DNA of 64,000 nt. It comes from Enterococcus sp. DIV0212c. Its GTDB lineage: Bacteria; Bacillota; Bacilli; Lactobacillales; Enterococcaceae. Shown piece after piece: positions 6,851 to 57,434 of this stretch. The first letter of the stretch is position 1, and every line of letters begins with the position of its first letter. The stretch is from the NCBI RefSeq assembly GCF_017377505.1, contig NZ_JAFREN010000020.1:1-64000 (forward strand), given 5' to 3'. A program made the translations under genes and the position numbers. The notes below the pieces were generated by a model. That model was not told the DNA's origin and did not search any database. It saw only the letters and a list, made by a program, of their open reading frames with translations.

Positions 6851-6855
6851 GGTGA

Positions 6856-7019
6856 GGTTGGGACAGAAGCGTTTAGTCCCGAGAAATAAGAAGGAATTCA
6901 CGAAAATTGCTCTTCAAATTTTTGTGAATTTTAGCTTATTTCCGAAGCCTTCAAATCTTAGTGCTTTAGCACTTAGAATTTGATGTGATCGAAGCGTAGT
7001 GATTGCTTCTGCTCCCACC
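6856..7019. repeat. Structured palindromic intergenic element (about 164 nt)
   Basis: The ends pair as GGTTGGGACAGAAGC with GCTTCTGCTCCCACC (two small mismatches). Inside are two further hairpins: AATTCACGAAAATT with AATTTTTGTGAATT, and TCAAATCTTAGTGCT with AGCACTTAGAATTTGA. The result is a three-way, clover-like fold. It resembles abundant short intergenic repeats of enterococci (I recall the EFAR class), but I could not verify the family. It lies immediately after the stop codon of the Mga-type gene. Confidence 0.6.
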
Positions 7020-7026
7020 GTTTATC

Positions 7027-7087
7027 CGGATTCTATGTGAGTGGGCTATGACTCTAAGAGTTATGGCCCACTCACATCCGCTTTTTT
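7027..7087 (+). terminator. Strong terminator with ATGACTC/GAGTTAT core
   Basis: A long stem (CGGAT...ATCCG outer pair, GTGAGTGGGC with GCCCACTCAC inner pair) is capped by ATGACTC-TAA-GAGTTAT and followed by six T. Closely similar cores occur in the terminators at 25287 and 29541. Confidence 0.85.
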
Positions 7088-18890: not shown

Positions 18891-18926
18891 GTAAGACTGG
18901 AAGAGCCGGCTAAGCTTTTATATTGT
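18891..18926 (+). repeat. Partial copy (3' end) of the 121-nt element
   Basis: GTAAGACTGGAAGAGCCGGC then AAGCTTTTATATTGT resembles the last 36 nt of the full copies that follow, with several differences. It suggests an older third copy whose 5' part was lost at the allH 3' end. Confidence 0.45.
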
Positions 18927-19047
18927 CTAGCTTCACGAGCTAGCACCTCGGAAAAAAGATAAAAATGGAGAGAGACAAAAAGCGTCTCAATCAATTTTCC
19001 CTATTTTTCAGTCGATGCTAAATGAGCTCGTTCAGCTTTTATATTAT
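18927..19047 (+). repeat. 121-nt structured element, copy A
   Basis: It starts CTAGCTTCACGAGCTAG and ends CAGCTTTTATATTAT. Outer helix ACGAGCT (18935-18941) with AGCTCGT (19025-19031); middle helix AGCA with TGCT; inner GAGAC with GTCTC around loop AAAAAGC. Constant internal-loop strings are TCGGAAAAAAGATAAA and CCTATTTTTCAGTCGA. It lies between allH and fdrA. Confidence 0.8.
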
Positions 19048-19168
19048 CTAGCTTCACGAGCTAGCACCTCGGAAAAAAGATAAAAATGGAGAGAGACAAA
19101 GAGCGTCTCAATCAATTTTTCCTATTTTTCAGTCGATGCTAAATGAGCTCGTTCAGCTTTTAAATTAG
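19048..19168 (+). repeat. 121-nt structured element, copy B
   Basis: Almost identical to copy A (only a few substitutions), so this tandem pair is a recent duplication. It runs straight into the fdrA ribosome-binding site AGGAGG at 19168-19173. Confidence 0.8.
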
Positions 19169-19180
19169 GAGGACCCCACT

Positions 19181-20731
19181 ATGACAATCAGCATCAAAAT
19201 TCAACCTAACACTTATATTGACTCTGTTTCACTGATGGCTTTATCAACCAAAGCAAATCAATTAGCAGGTGTTGATCAAGCAATCATTGCTATGGCAACA
19301 GAAATGAACAAGGAAGTCATGAAAAATGTTGGCTTATTCACGAATGAAATCGCCGAAGCGCAAACGAGTGATTTGATTATTGCGTTAGAGGCTAAAGAAG
19401 AGCAAGATTCCGCCGATTTGATCAAAAAAATCGAAACACTCATGACAGAGAAAAAAGAAAAAAGTACCAGCCAAACAATAGAAAATTATACAACAATCGA
19501 AACAGCCAAAAAATCTATCCCAGAAGCGAATTTGGTAGTAATTTCTGTTAATGGTCAGTATGCCGCTCGTGAAGCCAGAAAAGCGTTGAACAATGACTTA
19601 CATGTCATGATGTTTAGTGATAACGTCAGCGTAGAAGAAGAAATTCAATTAAAAGCGTTGGCATATGAAAAAGGTTTGCTAATGATGGGACCTGATTGCG
19701 GCACAGCTATTATTAATAATATTGGATTATGTTTTGCTAACAAGGTTCGTAAAGGAAGTATCGGGATTGTAGGCGCTTCTGGAACGGGTAGTCAAGAAAT
19801 CAGTGTTCGTATTCATGAATTCGGCGAAGGCGTTTCTCAATTGATTGGTACCGGCGGACGTGATCTAAGTGAGGCAGTTGGCGGACGAATGATGTTGGAT
19901 GCTATTGATGCTTTAGAAGCAGATGAAAATACAAAAGTGATCGTCTTGATTTCTAAACCACCAGCAAAAGCTGTAGAAGAAAAAATTCTTGCTAGAGTAA
20001 GAAAAGCTGAGAAACCCGTTGTTATCTGGTTTATTGGTAGTGAAAGTCGTGAAAATGAAGAAGGCATTTATTTTGAGAAAATGTCTAAAGCTGCGGCTTT
20101 AAAAGCAGTAACACTTGCAGGGATCGATGAAAACAGCTTAGATGTTCATCCGTTGAACCTGCCGTTGATTGATGAAGTTCGCGAAAAATTGACTTCAGAG
20201 CAAAAATACATTCGCGGTTTATTTACTGGTGGAACGCTTTGTGATGAAGCGATGTTCACAGCAAAAGAAAGATTTTCTGATGTTTACAGTAATATTGCAA
20301 CAGATCAAGAGCATCTTTTACATTTTGGTGATACAAGTAAAGCACACACATTTATAGATTTCGGTGCAGATGAATTTACCAATGGCAAACCTCATCCAAT
20401 GATCGATCCATCTAATCGAATCGCCCGATTTAAAGAAGAAGCTGCAGATCCGACTGTTGGAGTGATTTTGATGGATTTTGTACTCGGGTATGGTGCGCAT
20501 CCAGATCCAGTCGGTGTAATGGTGCCAGCAATGAAAGCCGCTAAGGAACAAGCTTTAAAAGAAGGACGTCATCTAGAAATCATCGGGTATGTTTTAGGAA
20601 CGGATTTAGATAAACAAAATATTGATGAACAAGTAGAAAAGTTGACCTCGATTGGTGCAACGTATGCTAGCAGCAGTCAAAATGCTGGTTTATTGGCAAG
20701 AGAATTTGTTGTGAAAGGAGCAGAACAATGA
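19181..20731 (+). CDS. fdrA: FdrA/AllF, acyl-CoA-synthetase-like subunit of carbamoyltransferase
   Basis: A 516-residue protein of the FdrA family (AllF), which resembles succinyl-CoA synthetase alpha. The nucleotide-fold segment GIVGASGTGSQEISVRIHEF lies at about residues 195-215, then QLIGTGGRDLSE, and FTGGTLCDEA at about 350. It is preceded by two tandem structured elements and an AGGAGG. Its stop overlaps the next start by 4 nt (ATGA), so it is coupled to allG. With AllG and AllH it should form the oxamate-carbamoyltransferase-type enzyme; the true substrate is not proven by sequence. Confidence 0.85.
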   Translation: MTISIKIQPNTYIDSVSLMALSTKANQLAGVDQAIIAMATEMNKEVMKNVGLFTNEIAEAQTSDLIIALEAKEEQDSADLIKKIETLMTEKKEKSTSQTIENYTTIETAKKSIPEANLVVISVNGQYAAREARKALNNDLHVMMFSDNVSVEEEIQLKALAYEKGLLMMGPDCGTAIINNIGLCFANKVRKGSIGIVGASGTGSQEISVRIHEFGEGVSQLIGTGGRDLSEAVGGRMMLDAIDALEADENTKVIVLISKPPAKAVEEKILARVRKAEKPVVIWFIGSESRENEEGIYFEKMSKAAALKAVTLAGIDENSLDVHPLNLPLIDEVREKLTSEQKYIRGLFTGGTLCDEAMFTAKERFSDVYSNIATDQEHLLHFGDTSKAHTFIDFGADEFTNGKPHPMIDPSNRIARFKEEAADPTVGVILMDFVLGYGAHPDPVGVMVPAMKAAKEQALKEGRHLEIIGYVLGTDLDKQNIDEQVEKLTSIGATYASSSQNAGLLAREFVVKGAEQ

Positions 20732-51645: not shown

Positions 51646-51676
51646 ATAAGGTACAAGGATTGTTTAGCTTTGTGGG

Positions 51677-51798
51677 CTAGCTTCACAGGCTAGTCTTTCA
51701 GAAAAAAAGATAAAATATGAATGTGGCGAAGAACGCCACCCCTATATTTTCCTATTTTTCAGACAAGACTGAACGAGCCTGTTCAGCTTTTAAATTTT
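51677..51798 (+). repeat. 121-nt structured element, copy C (before mfd)
   Basis: It starts CTAGCTTCACAGGCTAGTC. Outer helix ACAGGCT with AGCCTGT, middle helix AGTCTT with AAGACT, inner AAAATATGAATGTGGC with GCCAC...ATATTTT. The loop reads GAAGAAC instead of AAAAAGC. It ends at the mfd ribosome-binding site TAGGAGGAG. Confidence 0.8.
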
Positions 51799-51812
51799 AG
51801 GAGGAGTCTAAC

Positions 51813-54800
51813 GTGAACATCATTGAACAAATTGGTGCAAGTGAACTAGCTCGTGATTGGCGTGAGCAATTAACAGGAAATACCCGCCAGCTGATCACAG
51901 GCTTAGCCGGCTCAGCCAAAACACTAGTTATGACCAGTGGATTTAAACAAAAAAATAAGAAAATCGTTGTTGCTGTTCCTAATCTTTATTATGGAAACCA
52001 ACTAGTTGAAGATTTTCGGAATGTTTTATCAGATGAAGAAGTATATTTATTCCCTGTAGATGAAGTGCTTTCGGCAGAAATGGCTTTTTCTTCACCAGAA
52101 GCGAGAGCAGAAAGAGTAGCAGCGCTTAATTTTCTTTTAACGGATCAAGCAGGAATTGTCGTTGTTCCAGTGGCAGGGTTAAGAAAATATTTACCAAGTA
52201 AACAGACTTGGGCGAATGCTCAATTGCATTGGGAAATTGGCGGAGAAATCGAGTTAGATGACTTAGCGCAACAATTAGTAATGATGGGCTATGAACGTCA
52301 ATCTTTAGTAGGCAAGCCTGGTGATTTCAGTATTCGAGGCAGTATCGTCGATGTCTATCCGTTGAATTCCGAATATCCAGTTCGAGCGGAATTATTTGAT
52401 ATTGAGATCGATTCTTTACGTTACTTCGAAGCAGATACTCAACGATCGGTTAATAACATTGAATCTGTGACTCTTTCACCAATGAGCGATCTCGTTTTCT
52501 CGAAAGAAGATTTAGCACGTGGGGAAAAACAATTAAACAAAGCGCTAGAAAAAAGAATAGCGATTGCTAAAGATGATACTGAAAAAGAATTCCTTCAAGA
52601 TTATTTTGGGCAATTAGCAACTTCTTGGGGACAAGGGATTCCAACCGACACCGCGCATTACTATACAGATCTTTTATATGAAACAAAAACGACTTTACTG
52701 GATTATCTATCAGAAGATAGTCTTGTTTTTGTAGACGATTATGCACGGATTTTAGAAGCTGAGCGTGAAATCATTCGTGAGGAAAATGAATGGCACGTTC
52801 TAAAATTAGAAGAAATGCGTGTTTTCCCAGAGCAGACATTCGGCTTAGAGTTCCATGAACAAGTGAGAAAAATGACGTTTGCAACTACGTTCTTTTCACT
52901 ATTCCAAAAAGGAATGGGAAATCTGCGGTTTCAGGCAATTCACAATTTTCAATATCGTTCTATGCAACAGTTCTTTGGTCAAATGCCTCTATTAAAAACG
53001 GAAATGGATCGCTGGCAAAAACAAGACCAGACAGTTGTGGTCTTTGTACCAACGAAAGAACGCAGTCAAAAAGTAGAAGAACTGTTTCGAGATTTTGATA
53101 TTTCAAGTGTGACTGCTTCATCCGATAAATTAATAGAAGGAAAAATTCAAATTGTTGAAGGTTCTTTGCAGTCAGGGTTTGAATTACCAGTTGAAAAAAT
53201 TGTTGCGATCACTGAAAAAGAAATTTTTCATACGACAACGAAAAAAAGAGCAAGACGCCAAACAGTTTCTAATGCGGAGCGTTTAAAAAGCTATAGTGAT
53301 CTGAAAACAGGCGACTATGTGGTTCACGCCAATCATGGGATTGGTAAATATATCGGCATGCAGACATTAGAAGTTGATGGTGTTCACCAAGATTACATCA
53401 CGATTTTATACCAAAACGATGACAAGTTATTTATTCCAGTTACTCAGTTGAATCTGATTCAAAAATTCGTTGCATCTGAAGCAAAATCACCGAAGGTCAA
53501 CAAATTAGGCGGTAGCGAATGGAGCAAAACTAAGCGTAAAGTATCTTCGAAAATTGAAGATATCGCAGACGATTTGATTCAACTCTATGCTTCAAGAGAA
53601 TCTGAAAAAGGCTACGCTTTTCCACCTGATGATGCATATCAGAAAGAGTTTGAAGACGCCTTTCCTTATAGTGAAACAGACGATCAACTACGCAGTACCG
53701 CTGAAATCAAACACGATATGGAAAAAACACGGCCGATGGATCGTTTACTCGTCGGAGATGTGGGTTATGGGAAAACAGAAGTGGCCTTACGCGCAGCGTT
53801 TAAAGCAATCAACAACAACAAACAAGTGGCCTTTTTAGTTCCTACAACCATCTTAGCGCAGCAGCATTATGAAACGATGTTGGATCGTTTTGAAGGTTTT
53901 CCAGTAGAAGTTGGTTTGCTGAGCCGTTTTAGAACGAAAAAACAACAAGCTGAAACAATCGAAAAAATCAAACATGGCCAAGTCGATATTGTGGTTGGAA
54001 CGCATCGCTTACTTTCTCAAGATGTAACCTTTAGTGACTTGGGATTATTGGTGATCGATGAAGAGCAACGTTTTGGTGTGAAACACAAAGAACGATTGAA
54101 ACAGCTTCGGGCGCAAGTAGATGTGTTAACACTAACAGCCACACCGATTCCAAGAACTTTACACATGTCAATGCTTGGTGTACGAGATCTTTCAGTCATC
54201 GAAACACCACCAGAAAATCGTTATCCGATCCAAACTTATGTCATGGAACATAATCCCGGAGCGATTAGAGAAGCCATTGAAAGAGAAATGGCTCGTGATG
54301 GACAAGTCTTTTATCTATATAATCGTGTCGATACCATCGAGCAAAAAGTTGAAGAAATCCAAGCTTTAGTTCCAGATGCTAGAATCGCTTATGCACATGG
54401 TCAGATGACAGAAGTTCAATTGGAAAATACGCTATTTGATTTTATTGAACGCCAATATGATGTTTTGGTGACGACGACGATTATCGAAACAGGTGTAGAT
54501 ATTCCTAATGCCAATACATTGTTTGTCGAAAATGCCGATTATATGGGCTTATCTACGTTGTATCAATTACGTGGCCGTGTTGGTCGAAGTAACCGTGTCG
54601 CTTACGCTTATTTTATGTATGAACAACAGAAGATTCTAAATGAAGTCAGTGAAAAACGTTTAGAAGCTATCAAAGACTTTACGGAACTGGGTTCAGGTTT
54701 TAAAATTGCGATGCGAGATTTATCCATTCGTGGTGCAGGAAATTTATTAGGCGCCCAACAGCATGGCTTTATTGATTCAGTTGGTTTCGATATGTACTCA

Positions 54801-55346
54801 CAAATGCTTTCAGAAGCTGTGGCTCGTAAACAAGGTAAAAATATTCAAGACCAAAAAACTTCTGTTGAAATTGACTTGGGTATCGATGCCTACCTACCAA
54901 CAAGCTATATCTCTGATGAACGTCAGAAAATCGAAATCTATAAACGCATCCGTCAACTGGAAAATATGGATATGTATGATGAATTAGAAGCAGATCTACT
55001 TGACCGTTTTGGGGAATACCCAGACGAAGTTGCTCATTTATTAACCACAGGGAAAATCAAAATGGATGGCGATCGTGCCTTAGTTGAAACGATTCGCAAG
55101 AGACAGCAAGAGATCACGTTTACCCTAAGTAAAATCGGGACGAAAACATATAATGTAGAACAAATTTTTGAAGCATTGTCTCATACGCAATTAAAAGCAG
55201 ATCTTGCTGTAGATAATGAAAAAATGGCTGTTCGTTTGAAAGTACCTAAAGATATGAAAGAAGCCGCTTGGCTGCAAGAAGTCGCGCTGTTTACGACAGC
55301 TTTGAGACAGGAAAAATATAAAACTGCGGCTGTTGAGACAGAATGA
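51813..55346 (+). CDS. mfd: Transcription-repair coupling factor Mfd
   Basis: An 1,177-residue ATPase that removes stalled RNA polymerase at DNA damage and recruits UvrA. GTG start after TAGGAGGAG. UvrB-like N-terminal domains (about 1-350), the RNA-polymerase-interacting domain near 490-560 (GDYVVHANHGIGKYIGMQT), helicase domain with GDVGYGKTEVALRAAF, DEEQRFG, and the TRG/C-terminal domains (to about 1,170). Length is normal for the family. Confidence 0.95.
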   Translation: MNIIEQIGASELARDWREQLTGNTRQLITGLAGSAKTLVMTSGFKQKNKKIVVAVPNLYYGNQLVEDFRNVLSDEEVYLFPVDEVLSAEMAFSSPEARAERVAALNFLLTDQAGIVVVPVAGLRKYLPSKQTWANAQLHWEIGGEIELDDLAQQLVMMGYERQSLVGKPGDFSIRGSIVDVYPLNSEYPVRAELFDIEIDSLRYFEADTQRSVNNIESVTLSPMSDLVFSKEDLARGEKQLNKALEKRIAIAKDDTEKEFLQDYFGQLATSWGQGIPTDTAHYYTDLLYETKTTLLDYLSEDSLVFVDDYARILEAEREIIREENEWHVLKLEEMRVFPEQTFGLEFHEQVRKMTFATTFFSLFQKGMGNLRFQAIHNFQYRSMQQFFGQMPLLKTEMDRWQKQDQTVVVFVPTKERSQKVEELFRDFDISSVTASSDKLIEGKIQIVEGSLQSGFELPVEKIVAITEKEIFHTTTKKRARRQTVSNAERLKSYSDLKTGDYVVHANHGIGKYIGMQTLEVDGVHQDYITILYQNDDKLFIPVTQLNLIQKFVASEAKSPKVNKLGGSEWSKTKRKVSSKIEDIADDLIQLYASRESEKGYAFPPDDAYQKEFEDAFPYSETDDQLRSTAEIKHDMEKTRPMDRLLVGDVGYGKTEVALRAAFKAINNNKQVAFLVPTTILAQQHYETMLDRFEGFPVEVGLLSRFRTKKQQAETIEKIKHGQVDIVVGTHRLLSQDVTFSDLGLLVIDEEQRFGVKHKERLKQLRAQVDVLTLTATPIPRTLHMSMLGVRDLSVIETPPENRYPIQTYVMEHNPGAIREAIEREMARDGQVFYLYNRVDTIEQKVEEIQALVPDARIAYAHGQMTEVQLENTLFDFIERQYDVLVTTTIIETGVDIPNANTLFVENADYMGLSTLYQLRGRVGRSNRVAYAYFMYEQQKILNEVSEKRLEAIKDFTELGSGFKIAMRDLSIRGAGNLLGAQQHGFIDSVGFDMYSQMLSEAVARKQGKNIQDQKTSVEIDLGIDAYLPTSYISDERQKIEIYKRIRQLENMDMYDELEADLLDRFGEYPDEVAHLLTTGKIKMDGDRALVETIRKRQQEITFTLSKIGTKTYNVEQIFEALSHTQLKADLAVDNEKMAVRLKVPKDMKEAAWLQEVALFTTALRQEKYKTAAVETE

Positions 55347-55353
55347 ACAATGA

Positions 55354-55475
55354 CTAGCTTCACAGGCTAACCTCTCGGGAAAAAGATAAACTAAGATAGT
55401 GATAAAAAGCGTCACTTTCTTATTTTCCTATTTTTCAGTCGAGGGTAAACGAGCCCGTTACGCTTTTGAACTTAT
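55354..55475 (+). repeat. 121-nt structured element, copy D1
   Basis: CTAGCTTCACAGGCTAACCTC start. Outer ACAGGCT with AGCCCGT (one mismatch), middle ACCTC with GAGGG, inner AAACTAAGATAGTGA with TCACTTTCTTATTTT. First of four tandem copies just after the mfd stop. Confidence 0.75.
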
Positions 55476-55597
55476 CTAGCTTCATGAGCTAGCTCTTCGG
55501 AAAAAAGATAAAATATGAATGAGGCAAAAAGCGCCACATTCATATTTTCCTATTTTTCTGTCAGAGCTGAACGAGCTCATTCAGCTTTTGAACTTAT
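55476..55597 (+). repeat. 121-nt structured element, copy D2
   Basis: Outer ATGAGCT with AGCTCAT, middle AGCTCT with AGAGCT, inner AAAATATGAATGAGGC with GCCACATTCATATTTT (one mismatch), loop AAAAAGC. Period to the next copy is 122 nt. Confidence 0.8.
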
Positions 55598-55718
55598 CTA
55601 GCTTCATGAGCCAGTCTCTCGGGAAAAAGATAAAAATAGAGTGAGGCAAAAAGCACCTCAATCGATTTTTCCTATTTTCCAGTCGAGACTAAACGGCTCA
55701 TTCAGCTTTTAAACTTAT
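55598..55718 (+). repeat. 121-nt structured element, copy D3
   Basis: Outer ATGAGCC with GGCTCAT, middle AGTCTC with GAGACT, inner AGTGAGG region with CCTCAAT. The outer and middle helices are fully paired although their sequence differs from neighbours. Confidence 0.8.
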
Positions 55719-55840
55719 CTAGCTTCACGGGCTAACCTCTCGGAAAAAAGATAAACTAAGATAGTGACAAAAAGCGTCACTTTCTTAGTTTCCTATTTTT
55801 CAGTCGAGGTTAAACGAGTCCGTTACGCTTTTAAAATAGG
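55719..55840 (+). repeat. 121-nt structured element, copy D4
   Basis: Outer ACGGGCT with AGTCCGT (G-T pair), middle AACCTC with GAGGTT, inner AAACTAAGATAGTGAC with GTCACTTTCTTAGTTT (one mismatch). It runs directly into the flippase ribosome-binding site TAGGAGG. Confidence 0.8.
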
Positions 55841-55850
55841 AGGTAAACCA

Positions 55851-57434
55851 ATGGCGCATAAGGAAATGCGGACGATGATGCAAGGTGCTGTTGTTTTGAC
55901 TGTTGCATCGTTTATTGCCAAGGTGCTAAGTGCAGTTTATCGTGTGCCTTTTCAAAATTTAGTTGGTGATGAAGGATTCTATGTATACCAACAAGTTTAT
56001 CCAATCTATGGAATTGCCATGACACTAGCCTTATCTGGCTTGCCGCAGTTTATTTCAAAAGTCGTAGCTGAACAATCAGAAATTAGTGGACAGAAAAAAG
56101 TGCTGCAGCAACTGTTTCCTTTTGTTTTTAGTATAGCCAGTTTGTGTTGGGCATTTTTCTTTTTCGGAAGTCACGAGATTGCTGTGATGATGGGGGATCA
56201 GCGGTTAGCATCATTGATTCAAGTGGTGTCTTTTACGTTTTTATTGGTTCCTATATTGTCCTTTTACCGTGGGAATTTCCAGGGACATTTACTAATGATC
56301 CCAAGTGCTGTTTCTCAAGTAGTAGAGCAAATTGTTCGAGTAGGTGTGATTTTGATTGCTGCTTATTCCTTTAGCCAGTTTGGCTGGACAGTCTATCAAA
56401 CGGGAACGATTGCTATGGGCGGCGCTTTACTAGGTGGCGTAGTTGCCGTTGGAATTCTTTGGTATTATGATCGGAAAATTCGTGTAGGGAGCTCAGCATA
56501 TCTCACTCAGTGGCAAATGACTAAAGGTTCTGGAAAATTATTTGGACGTTTATTAATAGAAGGCGGCATCGTATCATTATATAGTGCTTTTCTGATTTTC
56601 TTTCAATTGATTGATTCTTTTCTGGTCAAAAATTCTTTGGTTGCATCAGGAATCAGTGATTCTGCTGCTAAAATCGATAAAGGGGTTTATGATCGCGGGC
56701 AACCTTTGGTACAATTGGGATTAGTTGTTGCGTTAGCATTAAGCTCAAGCTTTTTACCAGCACTGACTAAATATTTTATGGGTCAGGAGCAAGCTCGTTT
56801 TTTACAGGCGGCAAAAATGTTTTTACGTTTAACAACGACAGTGGCATCAGCTGCTTCGTTAGGTTTAGTATTATTGCTTCCTTATATGAATTTTGCATTA
56901 TTCAAAGATTATAAAGGAAATGGTGTTTTAGGGATTTATGTGTGCTCAATTGCTTTTATGGCGGTAATTCAAGCATATCAAAGTGTTTTGCAAAGCCGGA
57001 ATCAATTTGTGCCATCGATGTTTTCAGCTGGAATAGGATTGTTAATCAAACTATTCTTAACAGGTCCTTTGACCTATGCTTGGGGAACAATTGGTGCAAG
57101 CGGCTCAACGATTGCAGGTTTAATAGCAACACTATTTTGTTTAGTCTTATTTTCAAAAAAAGAAATCAATCGTTTTGCTGCAGAAAATCATTTTTTTAGA
57201 AAATTAACGATTAGTTTAGGAACTATGGGAGTTGTGTTATTCTGTTATCAAGGGATTATTGCAATAGTGCTAGGAACCGTTAGTCATCGTGGTCAGGCAT
57301 TGTTCGTTACGATACTTGGTGTTTTACTTGGTGGGGCAACATTTCTATTCATAATAATCAAAATAAACTTATTTACGATTCGAGAATGGCTGACATTGCC
57401 ATTTGGTGCGAAAATATTAAGGATGAAGAGGTAA
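55851..57434 (+). CDS. MOP-superfamily lipid flippase (YabM/SpoVB-like)
   Basis: A 527-residue membrane protein with about 14 hydrophobic segments. The polysaccharide-biosynthesis/MurJ-like family is recognised by [33 protein letters not shown] and [20 protein letters not shown]. The ATG at 55851 follows TAGGAGG; the longer open frame into the repeat is not used. Position between mfd and the S4/divIC/yabR genes matches Bacillus yabM. Likely moves a lipid-linked cell-envelope precursor across the membrane. Confidence 0.85.

Follow-up and report, generated by a model that had tools for sequence, protein, structure and literature searches.

A hairpin repeat lying directly upstream of Shine-Dalgarno sequences in Enterococcus is probably a mobile DNA palindrome of the Enterococcaceae

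Several similar units of about 120 nucleotides lie in the first 64,000 nucleotides of contig NZ_JAFREN010000020.1 of Enterococcus sp. DIV0212c, the whole stretch of DNA analysed here and hereafter called the window. Each unit can be folded into a hairpin, and the paired positions change on both sides from copy to copy. Such a pattern is left by a selected RNA structure and also by a mobile palindrome kept by its own mechanism, and the locus therefore raises the question of which of the two is present, and whether the repeat is one that has already been named in enterococci.

The first-pass annotation had listed seven copies that fold alike. All seven were found where it had placed them, with a period of 121–122 nt, and in each case the fold is a long imperfect hairpin of one kind (−30.4 to −44.8 kcal/mol). 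They form three sites on the plus strand, at 18927–19168 (two units), 51677–51797 (one) and 55354–55839 (four). The first site consists of units 18927..19047 and 19048..19168, which are 97% identical; the Shine-Dalgarno sequence (SD) AGGAGG follows directly at 19167..19172, with the ATG start of an FdrA-like gene at 19181. By eye, the remains of an earlier unit, its decayed tail (GAGCCGGCTAAGCTTTTATATTGT), can be seen before this array at 18903..18926; they resemble other unit tails. The single unit at 51677..51797 stands between pth and mfd, followed by the AGGAGG of mfd at 51799..51804 and its GTG start at 51813. A truncated head of another unit (TTTAGCTTTGTGGG, 51663..51676), recognised by eye and by the orthologous unit in L212, is joined to it at CTAG. 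The third array, between mfd and a MurJ/SpoVB-like gene, comprises units 55354..55475, 55476..55597, 55598..55718 and 55719..55839, the last of which is 92% identical to the first and 73–76% identical to the second and third; AGGAGG follows directly at 55838..55843, with an ATG start at 55851.

These units belong to a large family. A hairpin unit gave 72 BLAST matches in its own genome, and a covariance model based on 65 own-genome copies (16 truncated or odd copies were left out of 81) found at least 133 copies at E ≤ 0.001 when the best 150 of 4032 first-look candidates were scored. From 197 matches of the model, 135 were used to define arrays, the rest being mainly reverse-strand echoes of the palindrome with a few partial or weak matches, among them the window match at 6860–6962. 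The 135 copies fall into 87 arrays, of which 52 are single, 24 double, nine triple and two quadruple. Searches with one hairpin unit gave no match in plasmids and none in phages. No Rfam family reached its gathering score anywhere in the window, and 14 weak sub-threshold matches were seen within 55200–56000. Neither a description of the hairpin element nor its letters in full text was found in the open-licence PMC literature, and a term search gave no matches in PMC10969869 and PMC2229807.

Variant forms were also observed. Some units are short, about 60 nt in length, with the outer helices kept and the inner core missing; they occur at L052 6604–6665, L012 403–526 and L035 4847–4904. A linker module, GTTGAAAAGTACAAGGTG...GTTGTTACCATATGTTAT, precedes some hairpin units (G006 stretch A:232593; A:377308; L003, L013 and L002) and was seen once alone beside an SD, so composite modular forms exist.

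The structure itself is well supported. The helix pairs with two-sided changes quoted in the first-pass annotation are present, with mismatches in helices 2–3 of the copies at 55354 and 18927/19048, and helices 1–3 join both ends of the unit as terminal inverted repeats. In the alignment of 65 own-genome copies, 93.1% of the paired cells can pair, compared with 81.0% after shuffling and 37–52% when the partners are slid by 1–3 columns; both-sided changes occur in 26 of the 37 pairs, and the covariation score is 0.396 against 0.178 for shuffled alignments. The apical AAAAAGC had been described as nearly fixed, and it is so, and unpaired, in these copies. The same had been said of the internal loops, which holds in part: AGAT/CCTA and TCG/WGTC are unpaired and nearly fixed, whereas GAAAAA/TTTTTC proved to be a covarying helix that also appears as GGAAAA/TTTTCC.

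Covariation of this kind is expected of an RNA, and the types of mismatch in the stems can separate the two readings, since an RNA under selection tolerates G-U in its stems and does not tolerate A-C. Stem mismatches in the own genome were 47 G-U and 44 A-C (65 copies and 32 of the 37 pairs, five worse-pairing inner-helix pairs being left out), where cells, here and in the counts below, are not independent events. Thinning to 47 dissimilar copies left 37 G-U and 36 A-C, and the 30 copies proximal to an SD gave 15 and 18. Among 96 distinct copies from relatives the counts were 101 and 133, and among 50 distinct copies from other genera 20 and 43. In contrast, a purine riboswitch used as a control in the same 22 genomes gave 59 G-U against 3 A-C; two mostly wobble positions supplied 36 of the 59, and without these the counts were 23 and 3. 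The near-equal numbers of G-U and A-C show that the copies are not kept as RNA stems; they say nothing directly on the selection of active elements, and neutral decay after insertion may be part of their cause. Pooled over alignments A1, A3 and A5, A-C was slightly above G-U (220 against 168). This excess, if real, might mean that the folding strand is the bottom (non-coding) one, but we do not lean on it because one loop-closing pair supplies 19 A-C cells.

The unusual and striking feature of the family is its position directly before the SD. Based on gene calls from a simple open-frame script, the downstream gene is co-directional in 79 of the 87 arrays, and in 65 the SD starts between −6 and +8 from the end of the model, in 54 of them at exactly +3 or +4. 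The other 22 arrays include six in antisense between two genes, ten between co-directional genes and six after a divergent gene. A converging downstream gene was scored for one of the 87 (L003), yet an SD and an open frame follow there as well. In two sister genomes, SD-abutting arrays made up 20 of 32 in G006 and 17 of 31 in G013. A common function or regulon was sought in 30 of the 63 downstream genes with a readable start, and none was visible: families over the cut-off included mfd, tsf, rplI, codY, hslV, fabD, lgt, pyrB, nfo, trpB, dapA, menB, map and citrate synthase, and for four of the 30 genes nothing matched within the limit applied.

Sites are rapidly gained, lost and altered between related genomes. 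In the pth–mfd spacer, inspected by eye in 21 genomes, the element is present in seven and absent in 14, and the SD is kept in each of the 14 empty spacers. Filled and empty alleles differ in the sequence immediately downstream of the SD as well, and therefore some whole-allele exchange or shared descent is likely. At the empty pth–mfd and mfd–murJ spacers and at site B:86173, the SD is present and no stem-loop has been lost. G006 and G013 represent sister species with 94% identity in mfd; G006 has 32 arrays in 800 kb, 24 of which could be mapped onto G013, where five sites are empty, seven hold another number of units and 12 hold the same number. Retention at orthologous loci is weak, as only seven of the 24 have both the same number of units and at least 85% identity. 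At site A:366212 a different hairpin stands between flanks of 99% identity. Adjacent units share a mean identity of 0.83, compared with 0.75 between arrays, and the nearest relative lies in the same array for 19 of 65 copies; both duplication and the arrival of other units thus seem to contribute to the growth of arrays. Another short insert was noticed by eye in the tilS–hprT spacer (L210, L213, L217, L218, L219, L221, L222); it is absent from sister genomes and is flanked by direct repeats, each some 20 nt long and including the SD region.

The family was found in all 22 genomes of the genus that were searched, with 3 to at least 150 matches each and at least 82 in 16 of them. Across the Enterococcaceae, where the best 34 candidates per genome were scored, matches occurred in at least 61 of 105 genomes and at least 12 of 17 genera, many of them weak. 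The architecture recurs, with stems of quite different sequence, in five genomes belonging to four other genera, and both-sided changes were seen there in all 37 pairs of an alignment fitted to the model. The SD was abutted in only two of the 32 arrays looked at in these other genera. In G031 and G060, four of six loci each were seen by eye to have the unit after a T-rich terminator-like stretch, with a further conserved stretch before the hairpin; these units are about 190 nt long, and in G060 the extra stretch is a second hairpin. SD adjacency is mainly a habit of the present genus, which speaks against an SD-bound function in the family as a whole.

Two accounts other than a mobile palindrome have to be weighed against these results. 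The units could be cis-acting RNAs, in which a transcribed hairpin beside the SD, itself under selection locus by locus, governs how the downstream gene is translated or processed or how stable its message is; the sense orientation and the constant spacing from the SD that most arrays have, the strong covariation and the conserved unpaired motifs would all fit. However, a preference for G-U over A-C is lacking even in the SD-proximal copies and is pronounced in the riboswitch, the unit at a locus may be missing, multiplied or exchanged for another in the sister species, the scanned downstream genes share no function, and Rfam offered nothing above threshold. We therefore regard cis-acting RNA as improbable, and the selected RNA structure that had been proposed from the seven copies is not supported. 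A passive origin of the palindromy would have template switching during replication copy one arm onto the other, producing both-sided changes without any recognition of the hairpin. Mismatches without strand preference agree with this, as does the small number of intermediates relative to both-sided changes, but the mismatched AGAT/CCTA and TCG/WGTC should then have been corrected too, and they are nearly invariant in 65 copies. Dispersal and the position at the SD would also be left unexplained, and we give this account even less credence than the RNA.

The best-fitting explanation is the other one that the first-pass annotation had offered, a mobile palindrome kept by its mechanism, with which both the stem mismatches without strand preference and the turnover between sister species agree. 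We conclude, with a probability of roughly 0.6, that the 112–122-nt units represent copies of a mobile, non-coding palindrome, a small piece of DNA that occurs in the Enterococcaceae and is kept through recognition of the DNA hairpin itself.

The next question is whether this palindrome is EFAR (Efa-1), the named repeat of E. faecalis, or a close branch of it. According to a 2007 paper, EFAR is said to be about 170 bp long, to form two independent hairpins and, on insertion, to replace a 24–37-bp stem-loop with part of the stems kept. The units in the window, in contrast, are single hairpins of about 120 nt that stand beside SDs, and the empty sites have no lost stem-loop. Judged by behaviour rather than by sequence, the hairpin family is probably not EFAR. 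Moreover, a different element in these genomes behaves as EFAR is said to: G006 has three two-hairpin elements of 167–170 nt at places where G013 has 23–25 nt of a terminator hairpin, and this replacement of terminator hairpins we take to fit EFAR. An interrupted relative of the two-hairpin repeat (GAGGTTGGGACAG...) lies in the window at 6854–7070, with 88–94% identity over 6854–6947, 75–76% over 7003–7070 and other sequence between. A piece intended to represent the EFAR-like element gave no match in plasmids. In favour of identity with EFAR, or of a close branch of it, are the G031 and G060 units with their further conserved stretch, and a weakly similar motif shared with the EFAR-like element (18.7–19.4 against shuffled means of 14.6–15.0 and shuffled maxima of 18.3–22.0, which is near chance and too weak a match to rely on). 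PMC2267715 lists Efa-1 as a 163-nt palindromic intergenic repeat with 65 (18) members and a pair of adjacent stem-loops, and it is thus of the same general kind, a small palindromic intergenic enterococcal repeat in many copies. We nevertheless see only a slight chance that the two families are one.

For the mobile palindrome, a route can be proposed from the conserved motifs and the positions of the units. A trans-acting enzyme would use the fixed motifs (AGAT/CCTA, TCG/WGTC and the apical one) to recognise the DNA folded as a single strand, would move or duplicate the units and, in this genus, would put them next to A/T-rich-AGGAGG. The gene would tolerate the element because its SD and start spacing are left intact. 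It is a tentative and rather unlikely extension of this proposal that insertion is aimed at translation-initiation signals, the putative enzyme placing the folded strand in sense directly upstream of AGGAGG; if so, the element could spread through operons and before core genes such as tsf, rplI and codY without loss of gene function. An SD-targeting rule is not known for any MITE, REP, BOX or EFAR repeat, and a search of the open-licence PMC literature found no description of an SD-targeted repeat in enterococci.

The mobilising enzyme was not found in a search of the own genome (G000) for Y1 transposases (PF01797), which gave 0 matches. Such transposases occur in 12 of the 22 genomes of the genus; since they are absent from the own genome and from G089, a Y1/IS200-type partner was rejected as the resident mobiliser, a verdict that does not extend to a past role. 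Target-site duplication as a general feature is not supported. Flanks were no more alike than permuted pairs (p = 0.31 for 49 of the 87 arrays and p = 0.14 for 28 single-copy arrays), and one site, B:86173, has a suggestive 7-nt duplication, ATTTTAG. The ends of the insertion are consequently not fixed.

The family shares features with several known classes of repeat. REP/BIME palindromes are imperfect hairpins with conserved mismatches, a conserved foot tetranucleotide and a high copy number, and in these respects the present units resemble REP/BIME with its Y1 partner (RAYT); they differ in the longer hairpin, the position at the SD and the genome without a Y1 transposase. Like MITEs, the units are short, non-coding and A/T-rich, with imperfect terminal inverted repeats, high copy number and polymorphic sites; unlike in MITEs, internal mismatches are fixed over the full length of the hairpin, target-site duplication is unsupported, and the Y1 search found no parent insertion sequence. 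BOX, RUP and SPRITE of Streptococcus pneumoniae are also small, hairpin-forming and MITE-like, and the number of internal units of BOX varies as the number of units does here (PMC3049150). The same text describes them as over-represented between convergent genes, whereas the arrays here mostly precede a co-directional gene and abut its SD. It also gives about half of the pneumococcal insertions as core within the species; turnover was followed there within a species and here between species, and the rates are not directly comparable (PMC3049150).

The finding would mean that a family of more than 100 copies, present in many genomes of one genus, has been reshaping dozens of gene leaders, and this at the very spot next to the SD where insertions are expected to be harmful. 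It would also be a clean example of strong covariation without a selected RNA, in which the count of G-U against A-C, together with a riboswitch control, separates the RNA and DNA readings. Repeats of such a kind could easily be mistaken for regulatory RNAs.
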